Assembly (NCBI RefSeq): GCF_963675585.1 | Contig: NZ_OY776414.1 | Location: forward strand, 4,133,001-4,197,000 | Length of the DNA: 64,000 nucleotides | Direction of reading: 5' to 3' | Source of the DNA: an uncultured Draconibacterium sp. | Lineage (GTDB): Bacteria > Bacteroidota > Bacteroidia > Bacteroidales > Prolixibacteraceae | In this document: positions 7,664 to 55,848 of the stretch, one piece after another | Numbering within the stretch: position 1 is the stretch's first letter | Layout of the letters: each line of letters starts with the position of its first letter | Notes under the pieces: model-generated | Told to the model about the DNA's origin: nothing | The model's database searches: none | The model's input: the letters and a program-made list of their open reading frames with translations, nothing else | Position numbers and translations under genes: made by a program

Positions 7664-7700
7664 ATAGTCATACGCTCACTTGACGTGAGCGTATGACTAT
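7664..7700. repeat. Long perfect hairpin, member 1 of a three-copy covarying family
   Basis: Arms ATAGTCATACGCTCAC (7664-7679) and GTGAGCGTATGACTAT (7685-7700) are perfectly complementary over 16 bp, with loop TTGAC. It lies just after a separate normal terminator in a convergent intergenic region, so it is not needed as the terminator. Two relatives are at 54021-54051 and 55814-55848. Confidence 0.85.
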
Positions 7701-7711
7701 AAACTTATAAA

Positions 7712-8800
7712 CTACACCAACGAATCGCCTTTTTTAATCCGAACGTCGGTTACAAATTTTTTGATTTGCAGCTCATCTTCACGACGACAAATCATTAATG
7801 TATCGTTCGACTCGGCTACAATATATCCGTCAAGCCCGTGAATAACCGCCACTTTCTCGTTCGAAATATTTACAATACAATTTTCGGTATCATAAGTCAG
7901 AATGTTGTCGCCGCTTATTAAATTGCCGTTCTCATCCTTTTCTTTATTTTCGTACAACGATCCCCAGGTACCCAAATCGCTCCATCCAAAATCGGCAGTT
8001 AAAACGTAAACGTTTGTCGCTTTTTCCATAATACCATAGTCGATTGAAATCGACGGACATTCTGAATATGTTTTTTTTATAAAAGGAACCTCGTTACCGG
8101 TATTCAGCAGTTTTCTACCATTTTCAAATTTTAAAGCAATCTCAGTTAAATGCTGCTGAAATGCCTCGAGCATGGTTTGCAACGAAGAAATAAAAATTCC
8201 CGAGTTCCAGTAAAACTCCCCACTGTCAACAAAAATTGAAGCCATTTCTTCGTTCGGCTTTTCGGTAAATGTTTTCACCTTGTATAAATTGTCAAGCTCC
8301 TTGAATTTTCGGGGCTTTTTTACCTGTATATATCCGTAACCGGTTTCGGGCCGGTTGGGTTTAATCCCCAGTGTTAACAAAGCCTCCTTTTCCGAAACAA
8401 AATCAAGCCCGTTTTCAAGTTGATGAATAAACTCATCTTCTTTCAGAATTAAATGGTCTGATGGAGTTACAATCAGGTTGGCATCTTCGGTTTTCGACCG
8501 TATTTTATTTGCTGCATAAGCCAGGCATGGTGCCGTATTGCGGCGAAGCGGTTCAAGTAAAATCTGTTCTTCTTTTAGCTCGGGTAGCTGTTCTTTTATC
8601 AGGTCGAGGTAGTTTACACTGGTAACTACCAGAAAGTTTTCGGGAGGTATTATTTTAGCAAATCGATCGTAAGTTTGTTGTAGAAAAGTTCTTCCGGTTC
8701 CTAAAATATCTAAAAATTGCTTTGGTCTTACGGTGCGGCTGAGGGGCCAAAAGCGGCTTCCAACTCCTCCGGCCATAATCACACAAAAATTGTTATTCAT
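7712..8800 (-). CDS. Mannose-1-phosphate guanylyltransferase
   Basis: Makes GDP-mannose from GTP and mannose 1-phosphate for surface glycans. The N-terminal nucleotidyltransferase motif AGGVGSRFWPLSR (residues 10-22) and PKQF are present, then FTEKP, YWNSGIF, and the late FGWSDLGTW typical of ManC-type enzymes. No phosphomannose isomerase domain is present at the C-terminus; 362 residues is normal for the single-domain form. The frame extends upstream to 8866, but the ATG at 8800 (MNNNFCVIMAGG) fits the family. Confidence 0.93.
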   Translation of the reverse strand: MNNNFCVIMAGGVGSRFWPLSRTVRPKQFLDILGTGRTFLQQTYDRFAKIIPPENFLVVTSVNYLDLIKEQLPELKEEQILLEPLRRNTAPCLAYAANKIRSKTEDANLIVTPSDHLILKEDEFIHQLENGLDFVSEKEALLTLGIKPNRPETGYGYIQVKKPRKFKELDNLYKVKTFTEKPNEEMASIFVDSGEFYWNSGIFISSLQTMLEAFQQHLTEIALKFENGRKLLNTGNEVPFIKKTYSECPSISIDYGIMEKATNVYVLTADFGWSDLGTWGSLYENKEKDENGNLISGDNILTYDTENCIVNISNEKVAVIHGLDGYIVAESNDTLMICRREDELQIKKFVTDVRIKKGDSLV

Positions 8801-8909
8801 TTGATTATCTTTTATTTCGGGCGCAAAAATATCTAAATTAAAAAAGAATCTATAGAAAATACGCAATTATTTAGTTTATGTTGCCCATGCCATTCAATTT
8901 CGCAAAAAT

Positions 8910-8939
8910 TTTGTTTAAGGTTTTTAAGTTGTAATTTTA
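8910..8939 (+). promoter_or_regulatory. Promoter for the mlaE-mlaF pair
   Basis: TTTG at 8910-8913, an 18-base spacer, and TAATTTTA (8932-8939), one mismatch from TAnnTTTG. The ATG of the permease gene is 33 bases downstream. Confidence 0.6.
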
Positions 8940-8971
8940 GCGCTACAACAAAAGCATCAGAACAAACAGAA

Positions 8972-9712
8972 ATGGGGTATTTCTTTCATATAGGACGTTA
9001 CTTTAGTATGCTGAGAAAGGTATTTTCTCGTCCTGAAAAACACAAAATGTATATCCGGCAATTGTTTCATGAAATTGACACACTTGGAGTAAATTCGGTA
9101 TGGATTGTGGTGATCATTTCGATTTTTATTGGCGGAATTATGACCATTCAGTTTGCTTATTCCATGTCGAATCCGATTTATCCACGCGACCTGATTGGAT
9201 TCGGAACACGCGATACTTTAATTCTGGAATTCTCTTCCACAATGCTGGCACTGATTATGGCCGGAAAAATGGGTTCAAACATCACCTCCGAAATTGGAAC
9301 CATGCGGGTTACCGAACAAATCGACTCGCTTGAAATTATGGGTGTTAATTCGGCCAGTTACCTAATATTACCCAAAATTGTAGCCGTTGTTCTCATCTTC
9401 CCTTTCCTGTTTATAATGAGTGTGTTTTTCGGAATTCTTGGCGGACTTTTTACCGGCCCGCTTGCAGGAGTGGTTACAGTTCCTGAATTTATACAAGGTT
9501 TAAAATTTGCATTTGTTCCGTATTACATCACTTTTTCCATCATAAAATCGTTTGTATTCGGTTTTTTAGTAGCATCCGTTCCGGCATATTACGGTTACTA
9601 TGTGCAGGGTGGAGCGCTCGAAGTTGGAAAAGCAAGTACCAAAGCTGTGGTTAACACCAATATTCTGGTGCTGTTTTTCGATTTAATATTAACTCGTTTG
9701 TTGTTAACATGA
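8972..9712 (+). CDS. mlaE: MlaE-family ABC transporter permease
   Basis: Inner membrane permease of an MCE-type phospholipid transporter that maintains outer membrane lipid asymmetry. 246 residues with about five membrane segments; the family motif around EFSSTMLALIMAGKMGSNITSEIGTMRVTEQIDSLEIMG (about residues 86-125) is very clear. Its stop overlaps the next gene's start as ATGA (9709-9712), so the two are translationally coupled. No MlaD (MCE) gene follows in this window. Confidence 0.92.
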   Translation: MGYFFHIGRYFSMLRKVFSRPEKHKMYIRQLFHEIDTLGVNSVWIVVIISIFIGGIMTIQFAYSMSNPIYPRDLIGFGTRDTLILEFSSTMLALIMAGKMGSNITSEIGTMRVTEQIDSLEIMGVNSASYLILPKIVAVVLIFPFLFIMSVFFGILGGLFTGPLAGVVTVPEFIQGLKFAFVPYYITFSIIKSFVFGFLVASVPAYYGYYVQGGALEVGKASTKAVVNTNILVLFFDLILTRLLLT

Positions 9713-10461
9713 TTGCACTTAAAAACATATACAAATCGTTTGATGGCAACGAAGTACTCAAAGATATTTCGATTGAATTTGAACCCGGAAAAACAAACCT
9801 GATCATTGGACGAAGCGGATCGGGGAAAACCGTATTGCTAAAATCAATTTTAGGCCTTTTTGAGGTCGACTCGGGTGAAATATGGTACAACGACCGCGAT
9901 TTTACCAAAATAAGCGAAAAAGAACGCAAATCGCTGCGCAAGGAAATTGGGATGGTCTTTCAGGGAGGAGCACTTTTTGACAGTATTAATGTTGAAGGAA
10001 ATGTTCGTTTCCCATTGGATATGTTTACCGATATGAGCAGCGTTGAAAAAACAAAACGCGTTGAATTTTGCCTCGACCACGTTAATATCGAAAAAAAAGC
10101 ATTTCATCTGTCGCCCAGTGAAATTAGTGGCGGAATGCAAAAACGTGTGGCCATTGCCCGTGCCATTGCTTTAAATCCGAAATACCTGTTTTGCGACGAA
10201 CCAAACTCGGGACTAGACCCTGAAACAGCAACCGTAATAGACCAGTTGATTCAAAATCTTACCAAAGAGTTTCAAATGACTACCATTATCAATACGCACG
10301 ATATGAACTCTGTTATTGAAATTGGTGAGTCGATCCTGTTTATCAGCAAAGGCGAAAAAGAATGGGTAGGCACCAAAAATGAAATTCTGGAATCGGGCAA
10401 TCAAAAGCTAAACGACTTTATTTTTGCCAATAAGTTGTATGCCCAAATGAAAGGAAAATAA
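9709..10461 (+). CDS. mlaF: MlaF-family ABC transporter ATP-binding protein
   Basis: ATPase partner of the preceding permease. Walker A GRSGSGKT (residues 34-41), Q-loop VFQGGALFDS, signature ISGGMQKRVAIARA, Walker B YLFCDEP and the switch NTHDM are all visible; 250 residues is normal. VFQGGALFDS and SGGMQKR are characteristic of the Mla/Ttg2A subfamily. The 170-base gap after it and the unrelated next gene suggest that the MCE protein is encoded elsewhere. Confidence 0.93.
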   Translation: MIALKNIYKSFDGNEVLKDISIEFEPGKTNLIIGRSGSGKTVLLKSILGLFEVDSGEIWYNDRDFTKISEKERKSLRKEIGMVFQGGALFDSINVEGNVRFPLDMFTDMSSVEKTKRVEFCLDHVNIEKKAFHLSPSEISGGMQKRVAIARAIALNPKYLFCDEPNSGLDPETATVIDQLIQNLTKEFQMTTIINTHDMNSVIEIGESILFISKGEKEWVGTKNEILESGNQKLNDFIFANKLYAQMKGK

Positions 10462-10631
10462 ATGCTGATGACATACATTTCCTGCAATTATAAAAAATCG
10501 CTTCATACATCTTAACTCTTTCTGAAATCACATGATGAACATTGGTTCTAAACAATACAAATTCAATAGTATTGTTACATTTATACCAACTTTGAATTCC
10601 GGAATAGGGTTTCTAACAACAATATGACTTT

Positions 10632-11483
10632 ATGAATTACGAATGCCTAATTTGCCAGGTAAAGGCGCTGCCCAAACGAATGGATAAATTCGAGATTGCA
10701 GAAGAAAAACGCAACGTTTTGGTTAGCCAAATGGTAAAAAACATTGCCAACATTGATTTAAACAACAGCTATTCACCTGAGATTACCCGAAACCTTCTTG
10801 CCGGTTTAAAATTACATTCAGCTATTGATGATCCGTACAAACAGGAAAAACAGCAAAGCAATAAAGAATTGCTGGCCCGATACGATGAATTTAAACAACG
10901 CGTAGAAAACTCAGCCGACCGTTTTGATACGGCTCTTCGTTTAGCCATTGCCGGAAATATTATTGATTTTGGCCCTACACACAAATTTGATGTGGAAGAA
11001 ACCATTGATCGGGTTCTTACATCTGACTTTGCCGTTGATGACTCTGCTGAGTTAAAAGATGAAATAGAAAAGGCCACAACCATTCTGTATTTGGGCGACA
11101 ACTGTGGCGAAATAGTGCTTGACAAATTGTTTTTGGAAACCATTAACCACCCCAATGTAATTTTTGCGGTGCGCGATAAACCCATTTTAAACGACGCAAC
11201 AATAAAAGAAGCCATGGAAGTTGGCATCCCCGAAGTGGCAAAACTAATATCGAACGGCGACGATGCTCCATCAACCCTATTGCATCGGGTAAGCAAGGAA
11301 TTTCTGGATATTTACAAGTCGGCCGATTTAATCATTGCAAAAGGCATGGGCAATTTCGAAGGTTTAATGTACGAAACCGATCCCCGCTTATTTAATTTAC
11401 TGATGATTAAATGCCAGGTAATTGGTGATATGCTTGGCGCCAACAAAGGCGAGTTTGTGGTGAAAAGGTATGCTCCAAAATAA
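10632..11483 (+). CDS. DUF89/ARMT1-family protein, probable damage-control phosphatase
   Basis: DUF89 proteins are metal-dependent phosphatases that act on damaged or side-product phosphometabolites. The short prokaryotic subfamily starts with a CxxC, here ECLIC (Cys5 and Cys8). Conserved residues are seen in YLGDNCGEIVLDKL (153-165), AVRDKPILNDAT (179-190) and LIIAKGMGNFEG near 233-244. At 283 residues it fits the single-domain archaeal/bacterial form. The physiological substrate is unknown. It stands alone between mlaF and a convergent peptidase gene. Confidence 0.85.
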   Translation: MNYECLICQVKALPKRMDKFEIAEEKRNVLVSQMVKNIANIDLNNSYSPEITRNLLAGLKLHSAIDDPYKQEKQQSNKELLARYDEFKQRVENSADRFDTALRLAIAGNIIDFGPTHKFDVEETIDRVLTSDFAVDDSAELKDEIEKATTILYLGDNCGEIVLDKLFLETINHPNVIFAVRDKPILNDATIKEAMEVGIPEVAKLISNGDDAPSTLLHRVSKEFLDIYKSADLIIAKGMGNFEGLMYETDPRLFNLLMIKCQVIGDMLGANKGEFVVKRYAPK

Positions 11484-11769
11484 ACCACTATGAATTGAAA
11501 ATCCATAGGTTTAACAAACCGAATGAAATTCACTAGAAAAACCACAAAGTCACTAAGACACGAAGAGGTTTCAATATTAAATTTCTTAAACTTTGTGGTA
11601 AGTATTCTTGATAAATGTATAGATACAAAAGTAGCTGCAATAAAATTGCAGAGCCTGCCCCCGATTTTATTCGGGGATTTTAACCATTAACTGGAAAATA
11701 TAAATCCAACTCGGATCAAAATCCCCAACAGAGCTTTGACTTTTGCTGTTATACCGATTTAGTCTGAAA
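11484..11769. other. Convergent intergenic region with a degenerate repeat-like tract
   Basis: No gene was found in these 286 bases. Near 11536-11570 is an A-rich tract of CACAAAG/CACTAAG/CACGAAG steps, the type of low-complexity degenerate repeat seen dispersed in many environmental genomes. A weak 6-bp hairpin CCCCGA (11659-11664) / TCGGGG (11671-11676) could stop transcription from either side. Confidence 0.4.
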
Positions 11770-13416
11770 TTACTTATTTTCGGTATCGCTGATACAAAAA
11801 CTGCCCACATAAAAATCCTTGTCAACCTCAACGCTTTTTACCGCCAGTTCAGGTGCCAAAGTTGCCCAACGTTGGGTGGGTTGTAACCAGGTTAATTCGC
11901 CGTTTATATAAACTTTAAGCATCATATTAAAATCGTCGACACAATTTGCCCAGCGGTACTTTAGCTCACCGTCTTGCAGTGCATATTCAAATGTCGGAAT
12001 TCGGGTATCTCTTAAAAACTGGTTAAAAACCGGCTGAAAATCCCGTCCTGTTTTTTCAATAATATACTTTTCAATTTCGGTGGTTTTTACTGTTTTATGG
12101 TAAAAGTGCTGCCCCAGATCACGCAAAAGTTGTCTCCATTCTTCGTCGTTGTCAATTATTTGTCGCATGGTATGTAACATATTCGAGCCTTTTGGATACA
12201 TATCGCCCGATCCCGGATAATTAACACCATGAATGCCAAGAACCGACCTGTCGTTGTAAATATTCTGACGTGTTCCCCGGCAATATTCAGCACTGGCGTT
12301 TTTGCCCCAGTAATAATCAACAAATAAATTTTCAGAATAAGCAATAAAACTCTCGTGAATCCACATATCGGCCTCATCCCAGTTGGTAATGCTGTTTGCA
12401 AACCATTCGTGACCTGATTCGTGCACTATTATAAAATCGAATTTGTGGCCCCAACCCGAGCCACTTATATCGCGACCACCATAACCATTTTCAAAGCCAT
12501 TCCCGTAAGTTACCGAACTCTGGTGTTCCATTCCCGGATACGGAACTTCCACCAATTTATAGCCGTCTTCGTAAAAAGGATAGGGTCCAAACCAGTGCTC
12601 AAATGCTTCCAACATCATTGGGGCCTGCTTAAAATGCTTTTTAGCTTTCTTCAGATTATAATCGAGTACCCAGTAATCGCAATCCAAATCGCCTTTTTCG
12701 CCTTTATAAACCTCATGCCAGTGCACATAATTTCCAATATTGATGTTTACTCCGTAACCATTAATCGGATTGTTTACAAACCAATGCGCGGTTTTTGTTC
12801 CGTTTTCGTTTTGCTCCACTTTTCGTAAACGGCCGTTGGAAACATCCATCAGATGTTCCGGAAAAGTAATACTGATTAACATACTATCCGGTTCGTCGTA
12901 AGGATGATCCTTGCAGGGCCACCACAAACTTGCTCCGTCTCCCTGAACTGTAGTCGTAATAAAATCGTTTCCGTTTTCGTCTTTGCGCCAGCTCACACCT
13001 CCGTCCCAGGGCGGGCGGCGGCTTACTTTTGGTTTCCCCGAATATTCCACCAACAATTCATTTACATCTCCGGTATTTTGTGTTTTGTTTAAGGCAACAA
13101 ACCAGGCATTTCCATCGCGCGTATAGTTTTGTTCTACTCCATCCTGAATAATCCGGTTAATTTTCATTGGTGGCTGTAAATCAATCTGCATTACCTGCTT
13201 CGGTTCCGAAACACGATACTGAATCAAGTTACTTCCCATAAAACTGCTGTCGGCAGGTTTTACAGCAACACTTAAATGATAATACGTTAAATCCCACCAC
13301 TCACGTTCCGGAGTAATACTTCCGCGCAAGGTATCCTGATGTGTAAATTCGGTTTTTTGGGCAAAACCCGACCATGCAATTGTTAAAATAAAAACGGTAA
13401 AGAATATTCTTTTCAT
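11770..13416 (-). CDS. Secreted M1-family metallopeptidase
   Basis: Zinc aminopeptidase-like enzyme, predicted periplasmic or secreted. Signal peptide MKRIFFTVFILTIAWSGFAQ with cleavage after Q20. The zinc motif is HESGH (332-336) with the third ligand E355 in WIHESFIAY. The substrate-binding motif reads GMEHQ (295-299) rather than the classical GAMEN, as in other Bacteroidota members. 548 residues, with no T9SS sorting tail, unlike the M1 gene at 34.8 kb. It follows the SRPBCC gene by about 31 bases on the same strand and may share a transcript with it and the lipocalin gene. Confidence 0.91.
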   Translation of the reverse strand: MKRIFFTVFILTIAWSGFAQKTEFTHQDTLRGSITPEREWWDLTYYHLSVAVKPADSSFMGSNLIQYRVSEPKQVMQIDLQPPMKINRIIQDGVEQNYTRDGNAWFVALNKTQNTGDVNELLVEYSGKPKVSRRPPWDGGVSWRKDENGNDFITTTVQGDGASLWWPCKDHPYDEPDSMLISITFPEHLMDVSNGRLRKVEQNENGTKTAHWFVNNPINGYGVNINIGNYVHWHEVYKGEKGDLDCDYWVLDYNLKKAKKHFKQAPMMLEAFEHWFGPYPFYEDGYKLVEVPYPGMEHQSSVTYGNGFENGYGGRDISGSGWGHKFDFIIVHESGHEWFANSITNWDEADMWIHESFIAYSENLFVDYYWGKNASAEYCRGTRQNIYNDRSVLGIHGVNYPGSGDMYPKGSNMLHTMRQIIDNDEEWRQLLRDLGQHFYHKTVKTTEIEKYIIEKTGRDFQPVFNQFLRDTRIPTFEYALQDGELKYRWANCVDDFNMMLKVYINGELTWLQPTQRWATLAPELAVKSVEVDKDFYVGSFCISDTENK

Positions 13417-13447
13417 GAAATGGTTTTCTTTTTTCTGGTATCAATAA

Positions 13448-13909
13448 TTAGGCTGGGAATAGTTCTTCCAGCACTTTTTTTCGGTATTCAAAAATCTCAA
13501 TCAATTTATTTTTAATCAGTATTGAATTGGCTATTTTACCCAGCCAGCCCATAGGAGGTTGATAACTCACAATATCGCGCATGAGAACTCCGTTTTCAAC
13601 TTCTTCGATAATGTGTTGATGGTGCCACAACGAATAAGGTCCCACCCGTTGCTCATCAACAAAATAATGTTTATCAACCACATGTGTAATTTCGGTTACC
13701 CAGGTAGTTGGTATATGTAAAACCGGCCGCACGATATAACTAATAATCATGCCCGGATAAATTTTGTCGGGTAAATTCGGGGTGCGAATATCAAAACCCA
13801 TGTAATCCGGGGTAATCTTTTTCAGGTTTTGCGGCGAAGAAATAAAATCCCAAACCTCATCTAATGTTGAATTAATTAACTGTTTGCGTTCGAATTGAAA
13901 AAATGCCAT
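13448..13909 (-). CDS. SRPBCC-fold (START-like) protein
   Basis: Small cytoplasmic helix-grip protein of the polyketide cyclase/START-like group, often annotated as a ligand-binding or cell-division-inhibitor-like protein. FERKQLINSTLDEVWDFISSPQNLKKITP at the N-terminus and the ending typical of coenzyme Q-binding/START proteins support the fold. The ATG at 13909 (MAFFQFERKQ) is preferred over the upstream ATG at 13939 because homology begins there. 153 residues. Ligand unknown. It sits 39 bases after the lipocalin gene; both may handle hydrophobic molecules, but that is only a guess. Confidence 0.8.
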   Translation of the reverse strand: MAFFQFERKQLINSTLDEVWDFISSPQNLKKITPDYMGFDIRTPNLPDKIYPGMIISYIVRPVLHIPTTWVTEITHVVDKHYFVDEQRVGPYSLWHHQHIIEEVENGVLMRDIVSYQPPMGWLGKIANSILIKNKLIEIFEYRKKVLEELFPA

Positions 13910-13948
13910 ATTAAGTGGTTTTTGTTGGACATATGCCAAGTGAGTGAT

Positions 13949-14497
13949 TTACTTAGGTTTTTGCTCCACTTTTATCAACTTCGACACATCGTATCCCCGC
14001 TTTGAAATTCGATTGAGTAAGTCGGAATACAAATCATCCGGTAAGTGCGGTGTGCGAGATAAAATCCAGAGGTATTTATCAGAGCTGCTTCCAATAATTG
14101 CCCACTGGTAATCCTTGTCAAGTTCCAACACAAAATAATCGCCGTAAAAAATCCAGAAAAACGACACTTTTAACTTAGCTGGTTCAGTATCGGGATTTGG
14201 GATTTTTGCTTTGCCTATGGCTTCACTGTATTCTCCCTCCAGCGAATTTTTATACCCACTGTTTAGTACCTTTATTTTTCCATCGTCGCGAAAAGAATAA
14301 TTGGCTGTAACTCCTACCATATCGCGTTCAAAACGATGATCGAAACGTGCAATTTCGTACCAGGTTCCAAGGTATTCCTGAATGTCCAACTCTTTTACAA
14401 CTGTTTTATCAATTGTTGATTTTTGTCCCATACAGCTAAAAAACAATACAATCATAAAGCTAATAAGAAGTAAAGAAAATGCACTACGTTTTTTCAT
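13949..14497 (-). CDS. blc: Lipocalin-family lipoprotein (Blc-like)
   Basis: Outer-membrane-anchored lipocalin expected to bind fatty acids or lysophospholipids. The ATG at 14497 begins MKKRSAFSLLLISFMIVLFFSC, a lipoprotein signal peptide; the longer frame to 14611 adds residues that hide it. The lipocalin signature GTWYEIARFDHRFERDM, the beta-barrel strands around VTANYSFRDDGKIKVLNSGY, and the late YLWILSRTPHLPDD are all characteristic of the bacterial Blc group. 182 residues is the normal size. Heads a probable operon with the SRPBCC and M1 peptidase genes. Confidence 0.9.
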   Translation of the reverse strand: MKKRSAFSLLLISFMIVLFFSCMGQKSTIDKTVVKELDIQEYLGTWYEIARFDHRFERDMVGVTANYSFRDDGKIKVLNSGYKNSLEGEYSEAIGKAKIPNPDTEPAKLKVSFFWIFYGDYFVLELDKDYQWAIIGSSSDKYLWILSRTPHLPDDLYSDLLNRISKRGYDVSKLIKVEQKPK

Positions 14498-14629
14498 TTC
14501 TCTATTTTTTAACATTGGCTTACATTTTACAAGACTTATATTATCCACAATAGACTTCTCACTATGTACAGATAAAAATTGTGACAAGAAAATATTCAAT
14601 CCTAAAAACAATGAAGTTACATGAACTGA

Positions 14630-15169
14630 TTACCTCAACTCAATTTTATCAATCTGAAGACTAAAATTTTCGACCTTTTTATTTCCTATTAAAAGGGCAA
14701 TTTCCACTAAACCAGATTCCGAAAAATTTGCCAAATCCAGCTTTCTTCCTCTAAACGAAGGATACATATTTTCCAACGGAATTTCTATTGTTTGCCATTC
14801 GCCCGAAGTATTAAAATAAGCAATATACGAGTAGTTATCGCTGGTATTGGCATAAACTCTTGCCTGGTATCTTTTGCCATCACCCTTTACATGTAAAACA
14901 AGTTTTTTAGAATCGCCTATTTCCATACGATCAAAACGATAATGCACTGATGCAAATCCGCCATTATTTTCCAATGAAACCTTGCCTTGAAAAAGTCCGT
15001 TTCCTGCTGCATCTATCTCAAATGCAGCCTGCGATCTTCCCCCCATTACATCATCGTTTACCACAAACCATCCTTGTAGATCGCTGTTTTTTGAAAAATC
15101 AAAAAGTACCATTGAATTTGGATTTAAGTTAAGTAAGCTGAAAAGAACAATTAAAAACATACTACACAT
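14630..15169 (-). CDS. CIA30-domain protein (NDUFAF1-like)
   Basis: Carries a CIA30 (complex I intermediate-associated protein 30) domain, a galactose-binding-like beta sandwich found in many bacteria with unknown function. The typical start MVLFDFSKNSDLQGWFVVNDDVMGGRSQ and the segment QGKVSLENNGGFASVHYRF are clear. A short hydrophobic leader (MCSMFLIVLFSLLNLNPNS) suggests export. 179 residues. Bacterial members are not shown to assemble complex I, so no role is assigned. Confidence 0.82.
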   Translation of the reverse strand: MCSMFLIVLFSLLNLNPNSMVLFDFSKNSDLQGWFVVNDDVMGGRSQAAFEIDAAGNGLFQGKVSLENNGGFASVHYRFDRMEIGDSKKLVLHVKGDGKRYQARVYANTSDNYSYIAYFNTSGEWQTIEIPLENMYPSFRGRKLDLANFSESGLVEIALLIGNKKVENFSLQIDKIELR

Positions 15170-15313
15170 TTTTAGTCAACAAAACACCAGACTACCTTTT
15201 TTCAACATGAAAGCCGAAAATATCAGTATTCGTAAACAACTTTTATTAAACACCCGTTCTCCTCTTTCAAGATCATTCAACTTACGCTTCCCTAATTTGC
15301 CCAATTACAGATT

Positions 15314-16174: not shown

Positions 16175-16236
16175 ATACCATTTCCAATTGATAAAGAAAT
16201 AACAAGCTGCCTTTTCGAAAGTTTAAAACGACACTA

Positions 16237-18069: not shown

Positions 18070-18327
18070 CTCTTTAAAATTATCAGTTTCGGTTGTATTC
18101 GATGTATTTTAAGCTTTTTCTTTCTTAAAAAGATCGGTTTTTTTGTGGTAAATCTCTTTTACGCTCCCATTTTTAGCTGGCTATAAAGATACTTAGCTCG
18201 TTGTTTTATTTTATGACGAATCTGAGTATTTGTTAATTTATTGTAAGGAAATATACTGACAATCGTCCAAAAAACGCATTAAAAGAGTTTTTTGTATTTT
18301 ATTTGAACAGAATTTAAAAGATACAAA

Positions 18328-18765: not shown

Positions 18766-18788
18766 TTTCTTTTTAATACACATTTTTG

Positions 18789-19998: not shown

Positions 19999-20023
19999 GA
20001 TTCTTATCTTAAAATTAAGTCAA

Positions 20024-42773: not shown

Positions 42774-42779
42774 ATTTCA

Positions 42780-44390: not shown

Positions 44391-44410
44391 AAGCTTTCTT
44401 CTTCAGAGTT

Positions 44411-45313: not shown

Positions 45314-45346
45314 ATCTGTTTGGAATAAAGTTTGATAAAATAAAAT

Positions 45347-46693: not shown

Positions 46694-46805
46694 AGTATGT
46701 TGTTTTTCTTTTTCAGAACTTCGTTAGATTCGTAAATATACTTATATGCAATAAAATAATAAAATATTGCTGTGTAATCCAAACACGTTTAAATATTAAT
46801 TCAAA

Positions 46806-47750: not shown

Positions 47751-47866
47751 ACTTCTCTTTTCATGGGCCAATTTAACCATTTCTCAAACTCCGAAAGAAA
47801 TAAAAATTATTTATTTGTAACAATCTACTGTTAACAAGGTATGCAAAGAACGCTGTTAAGTTCGGA

Positions 47867-49018
47867 TTATTTTAATATTTCGTCTATTTTTTGAATATAT
47901 TTTAACCAAATAGTAGGAATTTCATTGCTACAAGCGTCGAAATAATCCTTTTCCAAACACGCCAAATATATGATTTCGTTGTTTATTGCCTGTATTTCCA
48001 TCCACCACTGATTTGTCTCAATATTCTGATAAAATTTAAGTGGCGCATCCAGTTCGGCAATGTCAACTTTGTTCACACTAAACCCTTCTTTCCCTTCAGG
48101 TTTTAGAGCACTTCTGTTTGAATGCCCTTCAATAAAATACCAGATAATTTGCGCTGCTATCCCCACAGAAATGGGACATTTCTCAATTTCAGACTGCATT
48201 CCCATTAGTCCAAAAACCTTAAGACGCGTACTTAAACCGGCGTATTTGGCAAGCTGGCAGGCTTCTTCATTTCGCAAGCCATTTGGCTGATTACTTGCCC
48301 CCGGAGCGTCACTGTGTTTTAATGCAACAAAATCGAAAGAAAGAAAATCGGTATTCCGAAAAACAGGCTCTGCCAAACCAATATTGTCTCTTAACTGCCC
48401 TAACCGAAGATGGTTATTAACACCTTTCACCTTTGCAAAATATTCGGTTGGAATATAATGACTTTGATGCCCCAATAAATTAAACTCAAAAATAGTTGGC
48501 TGGCTGCTAAAAATACGCGATAAATAATTTGCCTGACTAAATGTTTCTTTTCCTTTTTTTACATCCAGAAATGCATCGATGGTAGAATACGAAAAGAATT
48601 TATTATTCCGAAAGGCTTGACAAACACCATAACTAAAATCCTGGCTGCCACCTAAAATCAAGGTAACGATATTCATTTCGTTGAGGTAATCAACAACATC
48701 GCGCAAAGCCAGATAATTCCCTTTATTACTGCTCGACTCCTTTAAATTTCCAAAATCAATGAGATTAACTTTCCCTTGTGCAGCAAGCTGATACAATTCT
48801 TTCCGAATCAGGTTTGTGGCGTCGGAATAAAGCGATATATTTTCATTTGTAACAAAGGGAACTCCTACAATTGCCAGTTCAATATTTTTCTCATTTCCTT
48901 CTCTGAATCGCGTGGTGCACTTTTCGATAGTCGCTCCAAGGGAATATTTCCAGTTATACGTAATGTCTTTGGAATACGCTTCAAAATCAACAGGATTGAA
49001 ATAATGTTGTAGGTTCAT
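47867..49018 (-). CDS. Arginase-fold (ureohydrolase-like) protein with degraded metal site
   Basis: 383 residues with the order of motifs of ureohydrolases (arginase/formimidoylglutamase) but with changed ligands: GGSQDFSYG (123-131) where GG(D/G)H is expected, IDAFLDV (147-153) where DAHxD is expected, and SFDFVAL (227-233) where SxDxD is expected. Two Asp of DAxLD and one of SFD remain; the two His and the last Asp are gone. Catalysis is unlikely. Relatives with the same neighbourhood (topA on one side, T9SS genes on the other) are, from memory, common in Bacteroidota and often called formimidoylglutamase. Confidence 0.82.
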   Translation of the reverse strand: MNLQHYFNPVDFEAYSKDITYNWKYSLGATIEKCTTRFREGNEKNIELAIVGVPFVTNENISLYSDATNLIRKELYQLAAQGKVNLIDFGNLKESSSNKGNYLALRDVVDYLNEMNIVTLILGGSQDFSYGVCQAFRNNKFFSYSTIDAFLDVKKGKETFSQANYLSRIFSSQPTIFEFNLLGHQSHYIPTEYFAKVKGVNNHLRLGQLRDNIGLAEPVFRNTDFLSFDFVALKHSDAPGASNQPNGLRNEEACQLAKYAGLSTRLKVFGLMGMQSEIEKCPISVGIAAQIIWYFIEGHSNRSALKPEGKEGFSVNKVDIAELDAPLKFYQNIETNQWWMEIQAINNEIIYLACLEKDYFDACSNEIPTIWLKYIQKIDEILK

Positions 49019-49072
49019 CTTTTTTGCTTAAAAATAAGGGCAAATGACGAAATCACCTGCCCCTGCGTATTT

Positions 49073-51415
49073 TTATTTTTTTCTTCCCCGCCTTGGTTTT
49101 TGTTCGGGAGCTTCGTTAATAATCTTCATACAATCTTCAAACGTAAGGTCTTTGGCTTCAACCTTTATTGTTTTTGGTATTTTTACATTCTTCTTACCGT
49201 GTTTAATGTAGGGTCCCCATCTGCCGTTTAAAATCTGCACTTCCGCATCCTCTTCAAATAGTTTCACAACTGCCAATCGGTCTTTTTCACGTTTTGCCTC
49301 AATCAGTTCAATGGCTCTTTCGTTGTTCACCGAATACGGATCATCTTCCTTCCCTAAAGAAACAAATTTATTGTTGTGCCGTACATAAGGACCAAAACGA
49401 CCAATGGCAACGGTTATCTTTTTACCTTCATATTCTCCCACTTCCCTTGGAAGCCGGAACAACTCAAGTGCCTCTTCAAGCGTTATTGTTTCAATGTGTT
49501 GCCCAACACGTAAACTCGAGAATTGTGGTTTTTCTGCTCCCTCTTCGGTTGATGATTCACCAATTTGAGCCATCGGTCCAAATCGGCCAATTTTTACCGA
49601 CACTTCTTTGCCCGATTTCGGATCAACTCCCAGAATACGTTCTCCTTTTGATCGCTCGGCATTCTCAAGGGCATCTTCAACTTTTTTATGAAACGGCAGA
49701 TAAAACTTATCAATCATTTCGTTCCAAACCCGGTTACCATCGGCAATATCATCAAATTCCTTCTCAACGCTTGCAGTAAAGTTGTAGTCCATTATCTGAT
49801 CAAAATTGTCGAGTAAGAAGTCATTTACAACAATTCCGATATCAGTTGGAAACAGTTTGTTCTTTTCTGCTCCGGTTATTTCGGTTTTCACTTCCTCACT
49901 TATTTCACCTTCTTGCAAAGAAAGCACTGTATAATTGCGTTCCACTCCCGGACGCTCTTCTTTAACAACATAATTTCGGTTCTGTACCGTTGTAATTGTT
50001 GGTGCGTAAGTAGACGGACGTCCAATTCCAAGTTCTTCCAAACGTTTCACCAGCGAAGCTTCCGTATATCGCGGCGGACGTTGCGTAAAACGTTCGGTGG
50101 AAATTACAGATGTCATTTCCAGTTTATCATTTACATGTAAAGGTGGAATAATGGCCTGTCCGTTTCCATTGCCTCCGTTTTCGTCGTCGGTTGATTCAAT
50201 ATAAACACGTAAAAATCCGTCGAATACGATGACCTCGCCAGTTGCCTGAAAACTTTCAGCGGCATTCGAAACATTTATGCTTACGTTGGTACGCTCCAGA
50301 ATTGCATCGGCCATTTGCGAAGCAATGGTGCGCTTCCATATTAATTCGTAAAGCCTTTGTTCCTGCGACGAACCTTCAACCGTTTCATTCTCCATGTATG
50401 TTGGACGAATCGCTTCGTGAGCCTCTTGAGCTCCTTTGGCTTTTGTTTTAAACTTTCTGATTTTTACATACTTTTCTCCATGTAAATCTTCAATCTTTTT
50501 CTTTGATGTATTTAAAGCAAGATTTGAAAGATTTACCGAATCGGTACGCATGTATGTAATTTTTCCACTTTCGTACAAACGTTGCGCAACCGCCATGGTT
50601 TGCGAAACCGAAAAACCAAGTTTTCTACTGGCTTCCTGTTGCAGAGTAGATGTTGTAAATGGCATGGCCGGTGTTCTTTTTCCGGGCTTTTTTACCACAT
50701 CGGCAACTGTAAATTCTGCTGTTTTACATTTTTCCAGAAACGCATTCGCTTCGTCGCGGGTTTTAAAACGTTTCGGAAGTTCGGCTTTTAATTCAGTTGC
50801 ATTTCCTGCGTCATCGGCAACCAGAAAATACCCGTTTACTCTAAAAGCTGATTCACTTGTAAAATTCCTGATTTCGCGTTCGCGTTCAACAATTAAACGA
50901 ACAGCTACCGACTGAACCCTTCCTGCCGAAAGCGATGGTTTAACCTTTTTCCATAGTACCGGCGAAACTTCAAAACCAACAATACGATCCAATACCCTGC
51001 GGGCTTGTTGCGCATTTACCAGGTTTATATCAATATCTCTCGGATGTTGGACTGCTTTTGTGATTGCTTCTTTCGTAATTTCATGAAAAACAATTCGTTT
51101 TGTATTTTCATCTTTTAACTTGAGCACTTCTTTTAAGTGCCAGGCAATCGCTTCTCCCTCGCGGTCCTCATCGGATGCGAGCCATACAGTATCAGCTGTT
51201 TTTGCCAGTTTCTTTAGTTCCGAAACTATTTTCTTTTTATCGGGCGATACAATGTATTTAGGCGTATATTTCTTCTGTAAATCAATACCAAAATCCTTCT
51301 TCTCAAGATCCCTGATATGCCCCATGCTTGAGGTCACAACAAATCCGTCTCCAAGAAATTTTTCAATAGTTTTTGCCTTCGCAGGCGACTCGACAATTAC
51401 CAGGTTTTCGTGCAT
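49073..51415 (-). CDS. topA: DNA topoisomerase I (TopA)
   Basis: Relaxes negative supercoils. Toprim start MHENLVIVESPAKAKTIEKFLG, then SDEDREGEAIAWHL (acidic catalytic residues), and the active-site Tyr in ESGKITYMRTDSVNLS. The C-terminus carries repeated KIGRFGPMAQIG, AIGRFGPYVRHN and RWGPYIKHGKKNVKIP modules, the zinc-free topoisomerase C-terminal repeats, and ends basic (PRRGRKK). 780 residues is typical for Bacteroidota. Confidence 0.95.
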   Translation of the reverse strand: MHENLVIVESPAKAKTIEKFLGDGFVVTSSMGHIRDLEKKDFGIDLQKKYTPKYIVSPDKKKIVSELKKLAKTADTVWLASDEDREGEAIAWHLKEVLKLKDENTKRIVFHEITKEAITKAVQHPRDIDINLVNAQQARRVLDRIVGFEVSPVLWKKVKPSLSAGRVQSVAVRLIVEREREIRNFTSESAFRVNGYFLVADDAGNATELKAELPKRFKTRDEANAFLEKCKTAEFTVADVVKKPGKRTPAMPFTTSTLQQEASRKLGFSVSQTMAVAQRLYESGKITYMRTDSVNLSNLALNTSKKKIEDLHGEKYVKIRKFKTKAKGAQEAHEAIRPTYMENETVEGSSQEQRLYELIWKRTIASQMADAILERTNVSINVSNAAESFQATGEVIVFDGFLRVYIESTDDENGGNGNGQAIIPPLHVNDKLEMTSVISTERFTQRPPRYTEASLVKRLEELGIGRPSTYAPTITTVQNRNYVVKEERPGVERNYTVLSLQEGEISEEVKTEITGAEKNKLFPTDIGIVVNDFLLDNFDQIMDYNFTASVEKEFDDIADGNRVWNEMIDKFYLPFHKKVEDALENAERSKGERILGVDPKSGKEVSVKIGRFGPMAQIGESSTEEGAEKPQFSSLRVGQHIETITLEEALELFRLPREVGEYEGKKITVAIGRFGPYVRHNNKFVSLGKEDDPYSVNNERAIELIEAKREKDRLAVVKLFEEDAEVQILNGRWGPYIKHGKKNVKIPKTIKVEAKDLTFEDCMKIINEAPEQKPRRGRKK

Positions 51416-51573
51416 ATGCTTTCTAATCCGTTCTCAAAATTTCTGCAAATTAAAGAAAATGAAACGCTAAGTTCAAAATTTATCGTGCTATTTTTTATTT
51501 TCTATTTAATTGAAAATGATGAATTTATTTTTTAAAAAATAAAATATTACCCAATTTCGCGCCGTTAAAACAA

Positions 51574-51603
51574 TTGTTACGAATACATAATCATATATAT
51601 TTG
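51574..51603 (+). promoter_or_regulatory. Near-consensus promoter for the PBP1A gene
   Basis: TTG (51574-51576), 19-base spacer, TATATTTG (51596-51603), an exact TAnnTTTG match; 26 bases before the ATG. It sits in the AT-rich divergent region between topA and the PBP1A gene. Confidence 0.7.
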
Positions 51604-51629
51604 TTGCCTTAATAAAATCCATAAAATTC

Positions 51630-54008
51630 ATGGTTGAAAAGAAAATAAATTTCAGAAAATATATCATTTGGTTTTGGTCTATCGTGTTAGTTTCCATTGC
51701 ATCTGCTGTATTGTTCTTCGTTTTACTGGCACAGGGAAAACTTGGTTTTATGCCGAGTTTTGAGGAGCTCGAAAATCCTAAAAACATACTGGCGACAGAG
51801 ATCTTTTTTGAAGACGGCAAAGGCCTTGACAAATATTTTATTCGCGAAAACAGAACTTCTGTTGGCTATAATAATTTACCTCCGCATTTAGTTGATGCTT
51901 TAATTGCAACCGAAGATGTGCGTTTTTACGATCACTCTGGCATTGATTTACGTGGATTGTTTCGTGTGGTAAAAGGGTTGGCAACAGGCGATTCAAGTTC
52001 CGGGGGTGGAAGTACATTAAGCCAGCAGCTGGCCAAAATGCTTTTCCCGCGTGATGGTGTTTCAAGCCCGGTCGATCTTGTTCTTCGGAAATTTAAAGAA
52101 TGGGTTATTTCGGTAAAACTGGAACGTAGCTACACCAAAGAAGAAATTATTTTAATGTACCTAAACAAGTACGATTATTTAAACAATGCGGTAGGTATTA
52201 AATCGGCTGCGCTTGTTTATTTTAACATACCTCCCGACTCGCTACAGTTGCACCAGTCGGCCATGTTGGTTGGAATGGCAAAAAACTCTTCTCTGTACAA
52301 TCCTGTCCGACGTCCGGAACTTGTTCAACAACGTCGCAATGTGGTTTTAAAACAAATGGAGAAATATGGATACATTACAAAAGCGGTAAAAGATTCGGTT
52401 CAACAACTTCCTTTAGGACTGGAATACCGAAAGGTGGATTACAAGTTGGGACCGGCGCCTTATTTTCGCGAATACCTCCGTTTAACTTTATCGGCGAAAG
52501 AACCTGTGCGCGAAAACTATGCGTCGTGGCAAGGACAGAAATACATTGAAGATTTAGACGAATGGAAAAACAATCCGCTTTTTGGCTGGTGTAGTAAAAA
52601 CCAGAAACCCAATGGCGAAAACTACAACATTTATACCGACGGACTTAAAATTTATACCACACTCGACTCGCGTATGCAGCAGTATGCCGTTGAAGCGGTA
52701 CAACAGCATCTGGGAAACGATTTGCAGCCCTTGTTCGACGGCAGTTTGAAAGACCTCGACAATCCACCTTTTGCCAATAATATGGATGCCGAAGAAGTGG
52801 AGAGCCTCTTAAATCGTGAAATAAGAAAAAGCGAACGTTACCGGGTTTTAAATCTGGCAGGTAAAAATTTTAAGGAAATTAAGAAGGTATTCAATGAACC
52901 TGTTGAAATGACCATTTTTTCGTGGGCAGGCGAAGTCGACACTTTAATGGCACCCATTGATTCTATTAAATATTATCTACGCTATTTCCGTTCGTCGTTT
53001 ATGGCCATGGACACTGAAAGCGGGAAAGTAAAAGCGTATGTTGGCGGCCCCAACTACCAGTATTTTATGTACGACATGGTAAAAGACGGGAAACGCCAGG
53101 TGGGATCAACGGTTAAACCATTTTTATATACACTGGCCATGCAAAACGGCTTAACTCCATGTACCAAAGTTCCATATGTTAGTCAGCAATTTCAGCAGTG
53201 GGATGGCAGTATTTACGAACCCAAAGACTCGGATGTTGACGAAGAAATGGACGGCCAGATGGTTACCTTAAAATGGGGATTGGCCAACTCAAAAAACCGT
53301 ATTTCGGCCTGGGTATTAAAACAGTTTAATCCGCAAGCTGTGGTCGACGTAATGAAACGCCTGGGTATTTACAGTCCGATTGAACCTGTAAATTCAATGT
53401 TTTTAGGTGTTTCGGATGTAACCTTGTACGAAATGGTTGGCGCGTTTAATACTTTTGCAAACCTGGGTGTGTACACCAAACCCTATTTTGTTACCCGCAT
53501 AGAAGACCGCCATGGCAACGTAATTGCACGTTTTCAGCCGGAACGCCACGAAGCAATCGATGAACAAACATCGTACTTAATGCTGAATTTATTACAGGGT
53601 GTAATCGACGAAGGAACCGGAATTCGTTTGCGCGGCTCAAATTTATGGCGCGAAAGAGTTACGCAGGAATATGGAGAATTCACAATGCCAATTGCCGGAA
53701 AAACAGGTACCACCCAAAACCACTCGGATGGCTGGTTTATTGGAACTACTCCGAAATTAACCGCCGGGGTTTGGACCGGAGCCGATTTGCGAAGCATTCA
53801 TTTTAAAACCATTGGTTCGGGTCAGGGTGCGAATATGGCCTTACCTATTTGGGGCTATTTTTACAAAAAAGTTTTGGCAGACGAATCACTCGGAATCAAG
53901 GAAGAAGAAATGGAATTTAAAAAACCGTTGCACTTCGATATAAATCTTGATTGTGACGAGCTGGAACAGAAGAAGAATAAACCGGCCGAATTTGACGATT
54001 TCTTTTAA
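51630..54008 (+). CDS. Bifunctional penicillin-binding protein 1A
   Basis: Class A PBP that polymerises and cross-links peptidoglycan. One N-terminal membrane helix (about 11-34). GT51 domain with catalytic E95 in ATEDVRFYDHSG and GGSTLSQQLAK (127-137). Transpeptidase motifs S493-T-V-K496, S554-K-N and K691-T-G (AGKTGTTQNHSDGWFIG). 792 residues, ending in an acidic Asp/Glu-rich tail. It is monocistronic. Confidence 0.95.
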   Translation: MVEKKINFRKYIIWFWSIVLVSIASAVLFFVLLAQGKLGFMPSFEELENPKNILATEIFFEDGKGLDKYFIRENRTSVGYNNLPPHLVDALIATEDVRFYDHSGIDLRGLFRVVKGLATGDSSSGGGSTLSQQLAKMLFPRDGVSSPVDLVLRKFKEWVISVKLERSYTKEEIILMYLNKYDYLNNAVGIKSAALVYFNIPPDSLQLHQSAMLVGMAKNSSLYNPVRRPELVQQRRNVVLKQMEKYGYITKAVKDSVQQLPLGLEYRKVDYKLGPAPYFREYLRLTLSAKEPVRENYASWQGQKYIEDLDEWKNNPLFGWCSKNQKPNGENYNIYTDGLKIYTTLDSRMQQYAVEAVQQHLGNDLQPLFDGSLKDLDNPPFANNMDAEEVESLLNREIRKSERYRVLNLAGKNFKEIKKVFNEPVEMTIFSWAGEVDTLMAPIDSIKYYLRYFRSSFMAMDTESGKVKAYVGGPNYQYFMYDMVKDGKRQVGSTVKPFLYTLAMQNGLTPCTKVPYVSQQFQQWDGSIYEPKDSDVDEEMDGQMVTLKWGLANSKNRISAWVLKQFNPQAVVDVMKRLGIYSPIEPVNSMFLGVSDVTLYEMVGAFNTFANLGVYTKPYFVTRIEDRHGNVIARFQPERHEAIDEQTSYLMLNLLQGVIDEGTGIRLRGSNLWRERVTQEYGEFTMPIAGKTGTTQNHSDGWFIGTTPKLTAGVWTGADLRSIHFKTIGSGQGANMALPIWGYFYKKVLADESLGIKEEEMEFKKPLHFDINLDCDELEQKKNKPAEFDDFF

Positions 54009-54020
54009 AAATAATATCCG

Positions 54021-54051
54021 GTGATAGCCCCACTTTGAGTGAGGCTATCAC
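54021..54051. repeat. Covarying hairpin, member 2 of the three-copy family
   Basis: GTGATAGCCCCAC (54021-54033) pairs with GTGAGGCTATCAC (54039-54051) with one mismatch; loop TTTGA. It lies in the 50-base convergent gap between the PBP1A and nitroreductase genes and may also serve as their terminator. Confidence 0.8.
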
Positions 54052-54058
54052 TTATTTT

Positions 54059-54583
54059 CTAATTCTCAAATCCATTTATCCTGATCTTTTCAAACTGAAG
54101 CTCGTCAAACGATTTCCCTGATCTTTCGGTTTCGGCATAACCTATTGTTACAATACTCAACACCTTAAATTTTTCAGGAATATTCAATACATTCTGAATG
54201 TATTGTTCCGACGAAATTTCTTCAGAAAACATGCGCTTTCTTATTTGAATCCAGCAGCTTCCCAAACCAAGTGTTTGTGCTGTTAATTGCAATAATATCG
54301 AAGCAATGGAACAGTCTTCCACCCACACATCATTTTTGCATTCGTCGGCACAAATTACCACTGCCAAAGGCGCAGTTATTAAAGGCGTTACTCCATGCGG
54401 TTTACAACTTTTCAGCTTTTCAATTATCTCCTTCTCATCAACAAAAACAAACTCCCAGGGATTTATATTTTTCGACGACGGCGCTCTTAAAACGGCCTCT
54501 TTTAACAACTCAACTTTTTCTGACTCAACCCGTTTGTTGGTATATTTTCGAATACTTCTGCGCTTTCTTAAAATATCAATCAT
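54059..54583 (-). CDS. Nitroreductase-family FMN protein
   Basis: NAD(P)H-dependent flavin oxidoreductase. The start IDILRKRRSIRKYTNKRVESEKVELLKEAVLRAPSSKN is the classical family N-terminus, with FMN-binding RRSIRKY and APSSKN, followed by the late ALGLGSCWIQ segment. 174 residues is a short single-domain type. Its substrate is unknown. Confidence 0.88.
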   Translation of the reverse strand: MIDILRKRRSIRKYTNKRVESEKVELLKEAVLRAPSSKNINPWEFVFVDEKEIIEKLKSCKPHGVTPLITAPLAVVICADECKNDVWVEDCSIASILLQLTAQTLGLGSCWIQIRKRMFSEEISSEQYIQNVLNIPEKFKVLSIVTIGYAETERSGKSFDELQFEKIRINGFEN

Positions 54584-54710
54584 ATCAAATTATTTTCAAA
54601 AACATAAGTACATAAATTTTTCGTTTCAAAATGCCCGAAAAATCCGGTTTTTTATTCTCCCAAGTAACTAAAAAATATTTACCTTCAACTTCTCAACTTA
54701 ACCTTTTATC

Positions 54711-55772
54711 ATGAAAAAAAACAGGATTTTACTTTTGATAGTAAGCGCAATTGCCTTTTCGTGTGGCAACCATTATACAATGGAAGATTTTAAAACGGCT
54801 GAAAAAATTGATGCCCATTTTCATGTGTACACCAGCGAAAGTGCTGCCATGGAACAAGCCCAAAAAGATAATTTTAAACTGCTGGTGCTAAACACAAATT
54901 CAAAGAGCTGCGAGCATGTTGTGGAAACACAACAATGGCTGCAGAAATTAGACGAAACCTATACCAATAAGTTTGCATATTCTACCACCTTTTGTGATGA
55001 TGGTTGGGACGAACCCGCTTGGACTCAGAATACAATTGACTGGCTGGATCAGTGTTTAAACGATGGCGCGAATTCGGTAAAGGTATGGAAAAACATAGGG
55101 ATGAAATTGCGCAATAAAGACGGAAAACTGGTGATGATTGACGATCCTCAGTTTGATGTAGTTTTTGCTCATATAGCTGTAAAACAAATTCCGGTTGTAG
55201 CGCACATGGGAGAACCCAAAAACTGCTGGCTTCCCCTAAACGAGATGACAACCAAAAACGACAGCAGTTATTACGCCAGACAAGCGCAGTACCATATGTT
55301 TAAACACCCCGAAATGCCTTCTTACAACGAACAAATGAGTGCCCGCGACCGCATGCTCGATAAAAACCCGACGCTGGTATTTATAGGCTGCCACCTGGCC
55401 AGCCTCGAATGGAGTGTTGACACGCTTTCGGAGTGGCTCGACAAATACCCCAATGCCGCTGTCGACCTGTCGGGACGAATGGGACAACTGTTTTATCAAA
55501 CCTGCGAAAACAGGGAAAAAGTTCGTACTTTTTTTATCAATTACCAGGACCGGATTTTGTATGGAACAGATATTATTGATGGCGGAAAAAACAATGAAAA
55601 GCTTTTCAGCCAAATGCACGAAACCTGGTTGCGCGACTGGGAATATTTTTGTACAAAAAATAAAATGACCAGTGACCTGATCGTTGGAGAATTCCGCGGA
55701 CTTCAACTGCCAAAAGATGTGGTTGACAAGGTTTTTTCTAAAAACGCTCGAATGTGGTACGGAAGTTTTTAA
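54711..55772 (+). CDS. Amidohydrolase-family lipoprotein
   Basis: Exported metal-dependent hydrolase with an amidohydrolase-2-like TIM barrel. Lipobox FSC gives Cys18. Metal residues are H36-F-H38 (IDAHFHVY), AHMGEPKNCW and GTDIIDG. 353 residues. Homologues are annotated as amidohydrolases in Bacteroidota; the substrate is unknown. Ends before a hairpin terminator and a member of the covarying hairpin family. Confidence 0.82.
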   Translation: MKKNRILLLIVSAIAFSCGNHYTMEDFKTAEKIDAHFHVYTSESAAMEQAQKDNFKLLVLNTNSKSCEHVVETQQWLQKLDETYTNKFAYSTTFCDDGWDEPAWTQNTIDWLDQCLNDGANSVKVWKNIGMKLRNKDGKLVMIDDPQFDVVFAHIAVKQIPVVAHMGEPKNCWLPLNEMTTKNDSSYYARQAQYHMFKHPEMPSYNEQMSARDRMLDKNPTLVFIGCHLASLEWSVDTLSEWLDKYPNAAVDLSGRMGQLFYQTCENREKVRTFFINYQDRILYGTDIIDGGKNNEKLFSQMHETWLRDWEYFCTKNKMTSDLIVGEFRGLQLPKDVVDKVFSKNARMWYGSF

Positions 55773-55777
55773 AAACA

Positions 55778-55808
55778 AAAGGAACCGCTAAAAGCGATTC
55801 CTTTGTAT
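55778..55808 (+). terminator. Terminator after the amidohydrolase gene
   Basis: AAAGGAACCGC (55778-55788) pairs with GCGATTCCTTT (55794-55804), one mismatch, followed by T-rich sequence. Confidence 0.7.
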
Positions 55809-55813
55809 ATTTT

Positions 55814-55848
55814 TAGTGATACTCTCACTCTAAGTGAGAGTATCACTA
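55814..55848. repeat. Long perfect hairpin, member 3 of the covarying family
   Basis: TAGTGATACTCTCAC (55814-55828) and GTGAGAGTATCACTA (55834-55848) are perfectly complementary over 15 bp, with loop TCTAA. A normal terminator lies just upstream, as with member 1. Convergent intergenic region between the amidohydrolase and M3 peptidase genes. Confidence 0.85.

Follow-up and report, generated by a model that had tools for sequence, protein, structure and literature searches.

Repetitive extragenic palindromes (REPs) are common bacterial repeats, and how they spread and why their transposases have been kept for so long are open questions. REPs are known as the substrates of REP-associated tyrosine transposases (RAYTs), which are regarded as domesticated transposases (PMC6006769; PMC8266576; PMC3733652). 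The closest described systems are those of RAYT group 4 (TnpA_REP subclass 2.4), which occur in Bacteroidetes and Cyanobacteria, carry an NH[IFV]H motif, and use palindromic "double foot" REPs, some of them located in frame inside the RAYT genes (PMC6006769). Here, we analyzed a 64,000-nt stretch (the window) of the 6.03-Mb genome of an uncultured Draconibacterium sp. (contig NZ_OY776414.1), in which a first-pass annotation, made from the letters alone, had pointed out three hairpins of one design. The three hairpins belong to a covarying palindrome family of many copies that is linked to RAYT genes both physically and through shared sequence variants ("dialects"). They are very probably REP-type elements, the substrates of a cognate RAYT (TnpA_REP, an HUH-Y1 enzyme) that would have seeded them around the genome. 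Among the functions offered by the first-pass annotation, the REP-like element is the one supported.

A covarying palindrome family

The window copies are listed with their arms and loops and their covariance model scores.

7664..7700, no strand: REP-type palindrome copy 1, GTCATACGCTCAC-TTGAC-GTGAGCGTATGAC, 49.7 bits
54018..54054 (hairpin 54021-54051), no strand: REP-type palindrome copy 2, GTGATAGCCCCAC-TTTGA-GTGAGGCTATCAC, 46.1 bits
55813..55849 (hairpin 55814-55848), no strand: REP-type palindrome copy 3, GTGATACTCTCAC-TCTAA-GTGAGAGTATCAC, 60.1 bits

All three lie where the first-pass annotation placed them, and the compensated differences that it described at arm positions 3, 7, and 8 are present, as is its lone unpaired mismatch, a C.A at arm position 10 of copy 2; copy 1, with arms of 16 bp, and copy 3 are mismatch-free. 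The half-site GTGAGNNTATSAC, with one mismatch allowed, matched the window 7 times compared to 1.02 expected, and 0 of 100 shuffles reached 7. Across the genome, a 31-base pattern found 10 places and a looser pattern gave 12 matches, with 0 for the reversed-pattern control of the former and 0 for the control of the latter. The annotation had counted a three-copy family and proposed a genome scan with a covariance model. That scan, with a model built from 80 hairpins, enlarged the family to 24 distinct sites in the genome at E ≤ 0.01, plus one further weak site (E = 0.035); just three copies were found in the window at E ≤ 1.

The family palindrome is 33 to 37 bp long and has the consensus (tA)GTSATANNYTCACT-NNN-AGTGARNNTATSACT(a), with a 15-bp stem, a 3-nt loop, and base-paired ends (AGTS...SACT). 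Pairing holds in 98.6% of the cells of the 80 distinct rows, and double changes were counted in 76 cells, compared to 18.1 ± 3.2 in shuffled and at most 11 in slid controls. Because the search patterns allowed each arm to vary independently at positions 3 and 7 to 9 (S or N), the agreement of the arms at these positions was not forced by the search. Arm position 8 is not Watson-Crick paired in 85/120 copies, in most cases because of a T.G mispair, which appears as C.A on the complementary strand.

The cognate RAYT and its fusion to HPPK

The matching TnpA-REP transposase that the first-pass annotation had suggested looking for was found outside the window, as one open reading frame (ORF) of the same genome (G000; genomes and loci are denoted by G and L numbers).

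G000:C1, ORF about 870771-871775, minus strand: cognate RAYT joined in frame with a second HPPK (folK2), a folate-synthesis enzyme; outside the window

Palindromes are located 5′ of this RAYT, inside it, at the RAYT-HPPK joint, where the palindrome is translated as a linker, and behind the stop. The RAYT possesses the HUH motif and the single catalytic tyrosine of the Y1 fold, the latter assigned by motif. A palindrome is read in frame at the RAYT-folK2 joint of all 8 fused genes. Another is present inside the RAYT, 192 to 213 nt behind the ATG, in 6/8 (not in G105 or G063), so that an in-frame REP between HUH and Y, a trait of group 4/subclass 2.4, is found in these six. A third was detected by scan 5′ of the RAYT ATG in 6/8 (G000, G099, G122, G105, G063, and G009), and G083 has an extra hairpin behind the folB stop, identified by eye.

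The association extends to unfused RAYTs. The 91 loci brought in by the hairpin pattern alone (L037 to L127) contain five RAYT ORFs of the lineage. The hairpin is present at four of these, namely, at L042 (the fusion), on both sides of L057, inside L120, and on the 3′ side of L124, but not at L077. NCBIfam labels L057, L120, and L124 as REP_Tyr_transpos, under the cut-off. Among 10 further unfused RAYTs examined, hairpins with other letters lie on both sides in L300, L301, L302, L305 to L308, and L309, only one hairpin was found at L303 and at L304, and an in-frame palindrome is located at +210 to +223 in three (L300, L307, and L308). The unfused RAYTs of L307 and L308 (G114 and G108) have ATTGTCGGTGTCACT palindromes 5′, inside (+210), and 3′ of the gene, with a second palindrome type further 5′.

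The letters of the palindromes in the RAYT genes resemble those of the dispersed copies. In G111, the RAYT palindromes are AGTSGTCACCCGACT, and a wide pattern covering the dialects then known (reversed control, 0 in all 38 genomes) found five sites, each of the AGTSGTCACCCGACT type, of which two lie within the RAYT and the remaining three outside it. In G009, the GTC form is found both in the RAYT and in the 13 dispersed strict copies of that genome. The match is imperfect: the embedded palindromes of G083 mix two forms, and G090, which is fusion-free, has one G111-type palindrome.

A structure prediction of the whole fusion with 8 sequences gave low confidence for the RAYT half (mean pLDDT, 57.5), and the matches listed for this model were filled by HPPK and included no RAYT; the RAYT half was predicted anew with 27 sequences. 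In the sole pair far from saturation, dN/dS was 0.100 for the RAYT and 0.106 for HPPK, with values of 0.08 to 0.22 in other computable pairs. Two HPPK genes were found in 41 of the 54 genome entries searched (G137 repeats G104), so the fused HPPK is usually not the sole one. It is the only one seen in G105 and G111, whose genomes are 79% and 73% complete. Two other loci of the window's genome with Y1_Tnp genes (L016 and L017) have pairs of different short hairpins near the gene, of the GCCGTTGGC type and GCCGTAGGT type, and are probably separate REP-RAYT systems.

The folB-folK2 junction

The junction into which the RAYT is inserted was surveyed in 27 genomes, of which 25 were readable (G114 and G116 were excluded because no folB was available). 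It is empty in 15/25, with the folB stop overlapping the folK2 start as ATGA, filled by a RAYT in 8/25, and occupied by a lone, altered palindrome in 2/25 (G113 and G120, judged by eye). Filled genomes lack the former start ATG of folK2, and the palindrome is translated as the linker. In G000, G099, G122, G105, and G063, the left palindrome has the folB stop within it or at its edge, and in G009 the two touch.

The fused RAYTs group in a single clade (100/100), but the label "fused" is spread over the HPPK2 tree, with fused and empty genomes intermixed (8 changes compared to a shuffled mean of 7.8); weak forks are numerous in these single-gene trees, and the species tree remains unsettled. When G099 is compared with G083, divergence is twofold higher in the RAYT half than in the HPPK half (pN, 0.200 versus 0.095). 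Given the single clade, the scattered label, and the unequal halves, the RAYT either moved in or was exchanged more than once or was cleanly lost many times, and the data do not choose between these histories. The single clade and the mixed labels, together with the two lone-palindrome genomes, also suggest a tentative and somewhat doubtful scenario in which a REP-RAYT-REP unit homes repeatedly into a single site, the ATGA at which folB and folK2 overlap by 4 bases. The left palindrome could then bring the folB stop and the right one become the linker, so that a transposase would be tied to a metabolic enzyme and retained by selection acting on each half. Evidence that RAYT genes are themselves mobile has been said to be lacking (PMC8266576).

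Several genus members (L354 to L357 and L360 to L363) have a GGTCAAAC...GTTTGACC-like hairpin directly behind the folK2 stop, which looks like an ordinary gene-end hairpin with letters similar to those of the family.

Taxonomic range and copy number

A strict pattern was compared to one genome for each of 84,980 species and found 90 stretches. The 80 of these with titles listed were all from Bacteroidota, including Draconibacterium, Tangfeifania, Prolixibacteraceae, Paludibacter, uncultured Bacteroidales and Bacteroidia, one Saprospiraceae metagenome-assembled genome (MAG), and one Lewinellaceae MAG. Within the window's genus, the model matched 27/37 genomes; strand matches, about two of which correspond to one site, ranged from 0 to 70 per genome, with the most in G103 (70). 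The RAYT of a Draconibacterium orientale genome (G124, reached through L044) has coordinates identical to those in G103, from which membership of the window in Draconibacterium follows by inference. One family copy was seen on an IMG/VR viral contig (L127, 8557-8587).

Larger repeats surround the copies in two lake genomes. At four loci of one lake Bacteroidales MAG (L048, L093, L096, and L110), the palindrome is embedded in a longer repeat whose flanks are partly conserved, ..aacga before and ..agtggagaccag behind in most, unlike most other genomes. At L282, family palindromes at 1738-1774 and 2632-2668, about 0.9 kb apart, flank an ORF that by eye resembles an AraC-type regulator, a possible REP-bounded insert.

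Placement of the copies and the end of gene A

The window copies are neighbored by the following features.

4169..7609, + strand: AcrB/AcrD/AcrF-family transporter (PF00873)
7625..7659 (stem), no strand: ordinary terminator-like hairpin with T-tail, outside the family, adjoining copy 1
7712..8866, - strand: nucleotidyl transferase with ManC/GMP beta-helix domain (PF00483, PF22640)
51630..54008, + strand: gene A, penicillin-binding protein with transglycosylase and transpeptidase domains (PF00912, PF00905)
54059..54583, - strand: gene B, nitroreductase family (PF00881)
54711..55772, + strand: gene C, amidohydrolase (PF04909)
55781..55812, no strand: ordinary terminator-like hairpin with T-rich tail, outside the family, adjoining copy 3, read from sequence (stem about 55781-55801, then TTTGTATATTTTT)
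55863..57917, - strand: gene D, peptidase family M3 (PF01432)

As the first-pass annotation had it, convergent ORFs flank all three copies, and separate terminator-like hairpins adjoin two of them, copies 1 and 3. Copies 1 and 3 are 14 and 16 nt off the stop of the minus-strand gene, respectively, and copy 2 is the sole hairpin seen in its 50-nt convergent gap, with the two stops 12 and 7 nt away. Rfam at gathering scores gave no match at the hairpins; its only match in the window is a SAM-II riboswitch aptamer at 63631-63692 (+ strand, 57.2 bits). In the copy 3 gap of four readable relatives (G107, G117, G115, and G090), other hairpins were found without a family copy, a pattern that does not tell gain from loss.

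With genes called as longest ORFs, without a trained gene finder, the 24 sites of the window's genome comprise 6 in convergent gaps, 15 in tandem gaps, and 3 inside ORFs, and a stop codon lies within 20 nt of 16/24. In a set of 120 copies, 51 were in tandem gaps, 38 in convergent gaps, 8 in divergent gaps, 15 inside ORFs, and 8 at locus edges. The 97 copies in gaps were compared to the 429 gaps of at least 35 nt in the same loci (266 tandem, 83 convergent, and 80 divergent), and the classes differed (chi-square, p = 5e-5, with related copies not independent). Convergent gaps, the setting noted for all three hairpins by the first-pass annotation, are indeed enriched (38/97 copies versus 83/429 gaps), yet tandem gaps hold more copies (51/97), and a convergent setting is not supported as a defining feature. 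The stronger bias is for a position a few bases behind a stop codon, with stop-to-hairpin distances crowding at about 6 to 16 nt.

Gene A illustrates how long a copy can be kept. A family hairpin is located 10 to 12 nt past its stop in G000, G083, G053, G103, G104, G121, and G030; it is decayed in G122, and the matching place in G096 was assigned by the model alone. In this survey, a regular expression flagged 3/30 genomes, and the others were identified by eye and by model places. The arms differ with compensation, position 7 being G-C in G000 and C-G in G083. An ordinary U-tailed terminator takes its place in at least seven relatives (G093, G077, G099, G087, G119, G110, and G101). From the long retention behind gene A, we infer gene-end use. 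The closest relative in gene A, L246 (G070), has 0 model matches and no family copy.

Interpretation and alternative explanations

Under the REP interpretation, the RAYT would cut and rejoin one strand at the hairpin while the DNA is single-stranded, and copies would thereby be seeded around the genome. Those that persist would be mostly the ones just behind stop codons, where an insert is harmless, and some, such as that behind gene A, would then be retained through long divergence, probably because they serve as gene-end structures replacing an ordinary terminator.

Several observations weigh against this interpretation. Transposition and cleavage events were not observed, classical REPs have an unpaired 5′ GT[AG]G tag that is missing here, and the copy number is low. 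Genomes with the fusion have a median of 14 copies and those without it 2 (p = 0.017), a comparison of 7 with 29 genomes that excluded G116 (contig end) and is uncorrected for kinship. G103 has many copies without a fused RAYT; its folK2 is unfused, and the related RAYT in this genome contains an in-frame stop and is accompanied by hairpins of another dialect. No clean empty site of a dispersed copy could be shown because the relatives searched are so divergent (about 67 to 84% identical in matched stretches within the genus and 63 to 76% in longer stretches among other genomes of the G091 genus). The RAYT scores 46.8 of the 80 bits required by the equivalog-type NCBIfam model NF047646 (E = 2.6e-12), below the curated cut-off, as do unfused relatives, and PF01797 (Y1_Tnp) does not match it even at E ≤ 10. 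Finally, the family is present in 0 of the 52 distinct PF01797 loci (61 read, identical copies removed). The conclusion that there is no RAYT, considered on the basis of these loci, was rejected, as the cognate RAYT is too divergent for PF01797.

The placement data raise the alternative that the hairpins are a lineage-specific, sequence-constrained terminator or 3′-end element, vertically inherited and acting as an RNA hairpin. Copies crowd behind stops, and the family occupies an orthologous place behind gene A in relatives, others of which have a U-tailed terminator there. The hallmark of an intrinsic terminator, a U-tract behind the stem, was not clearly present in 59 copies: the 10 nt downstream contain a mean of 4.0 T (one of which is a paired stem base), versus 3.0 upstream and 2.6 in the next 10, in agreement with the first-pass statement that the hairpins are not simply terminators. 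An RNA hairpin whose G.U strand follows transcription was also considered, and the strand bias was not significant (23 to 14, p = 0.19). A terminator would leave unexplained the dialects as well as the palindromes found within RAYT genes and at the RAYT-folK2 joint. This alternative is therefore very unlikely as the origin of the family, and a terminator or 3′-end role may be a secondary use of its copies.

Strong conservation of most arm letters would also suit a double-stranded binding site for a regulator, with AGTGA/TCACT half-sites. However, position 3, which is G or C and rarely A, pairs in 76/77 distinct hairpins, which a degenerate double-stranded site would not need, and copies lie behind stops rather than at promoters (8/120 in divergent gaps), making such a site less probable still. 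The least credible alternative is that the palindromes are the ends of an unrelated insertion sequence or miniature inverted-repeat transposable element; the patchy counts across the genus are compatible with it, but flank conservation ends after one or two bases, and RAYT is the only transposase found repeatedly at the hairpins, other families not having been searched systematically.

Comparison with known systems

The RAYT-HPPK locus offers a natural experiment on RAYT domestication, RAYT/REP coevolution, and RAYT gene mobility: the palindrome of a RAYT ties it to a folate enzyme, one site is empty, filled, or occupied by a lone palindrome across related species, and palindrome letters in the RAYT gene match the dispersed copies. 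The palindromes have also taken on everyday jobs, as stop codon, protein linker, and, probably, gene end. Among the open-access papers listed in the literature searches, none describes a RAYT-HPPK fusion in its title or the opening of its abstract. The main text of PMC6006769, which set aside unusually long proteins as gene fusions or annotation errors, mentions neither HPPK nor folK. The palindrome feet and the fusion both look new.

The family shares with REPs a short palindrome (within 20 to 50 nt), many mostly extragenic copies (21 of 24 sites outside called ORFs), and a RAYT gene with matching palindromes; the conserved unpaired 5′ tetranucleotide GTAG (GT[AG]G) is missing, since the ends are paired. 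Judged from these letters and neighbors, it appears to function as REPs do, although it does not have the form of the canonical GTAG type. The E. coli REP/TnpA_REP system (PDB 4ER8) differs in having the GTAG tag and about six hundred copies, compared to tens here (PMC8266576). The E. coli protein is 17% identical over the aligned part, and REP pairs (BIME/REPIN) do not seem to be the rule here, though without a systematic test. Compared to IS200/IS605 elements (IS608 and ISDra2), no transposon-sized repeat was seen, and the predicted protein model is closer to TnpA_REP. The nearest likeness is to the group 4/subclass 2.4 REPtrons, with which the host group, the NH[IFV]H motif, and palindromic double-foot REPs are held in common (PMC6006769), a likeness based on motif and palindromes rather than tree placement. 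Their feet are GT[AG]G...C[TC]AC (PMC6006769), which the family lacks; its own are base-paired, GTSA...TSAC or GTCG/CGAC, and its RAYT is fused to HPPK. In fusions of the HPPK-DHPS type, the partner of HPPK is another folate enzyme, whereas here it is a REP transposase.

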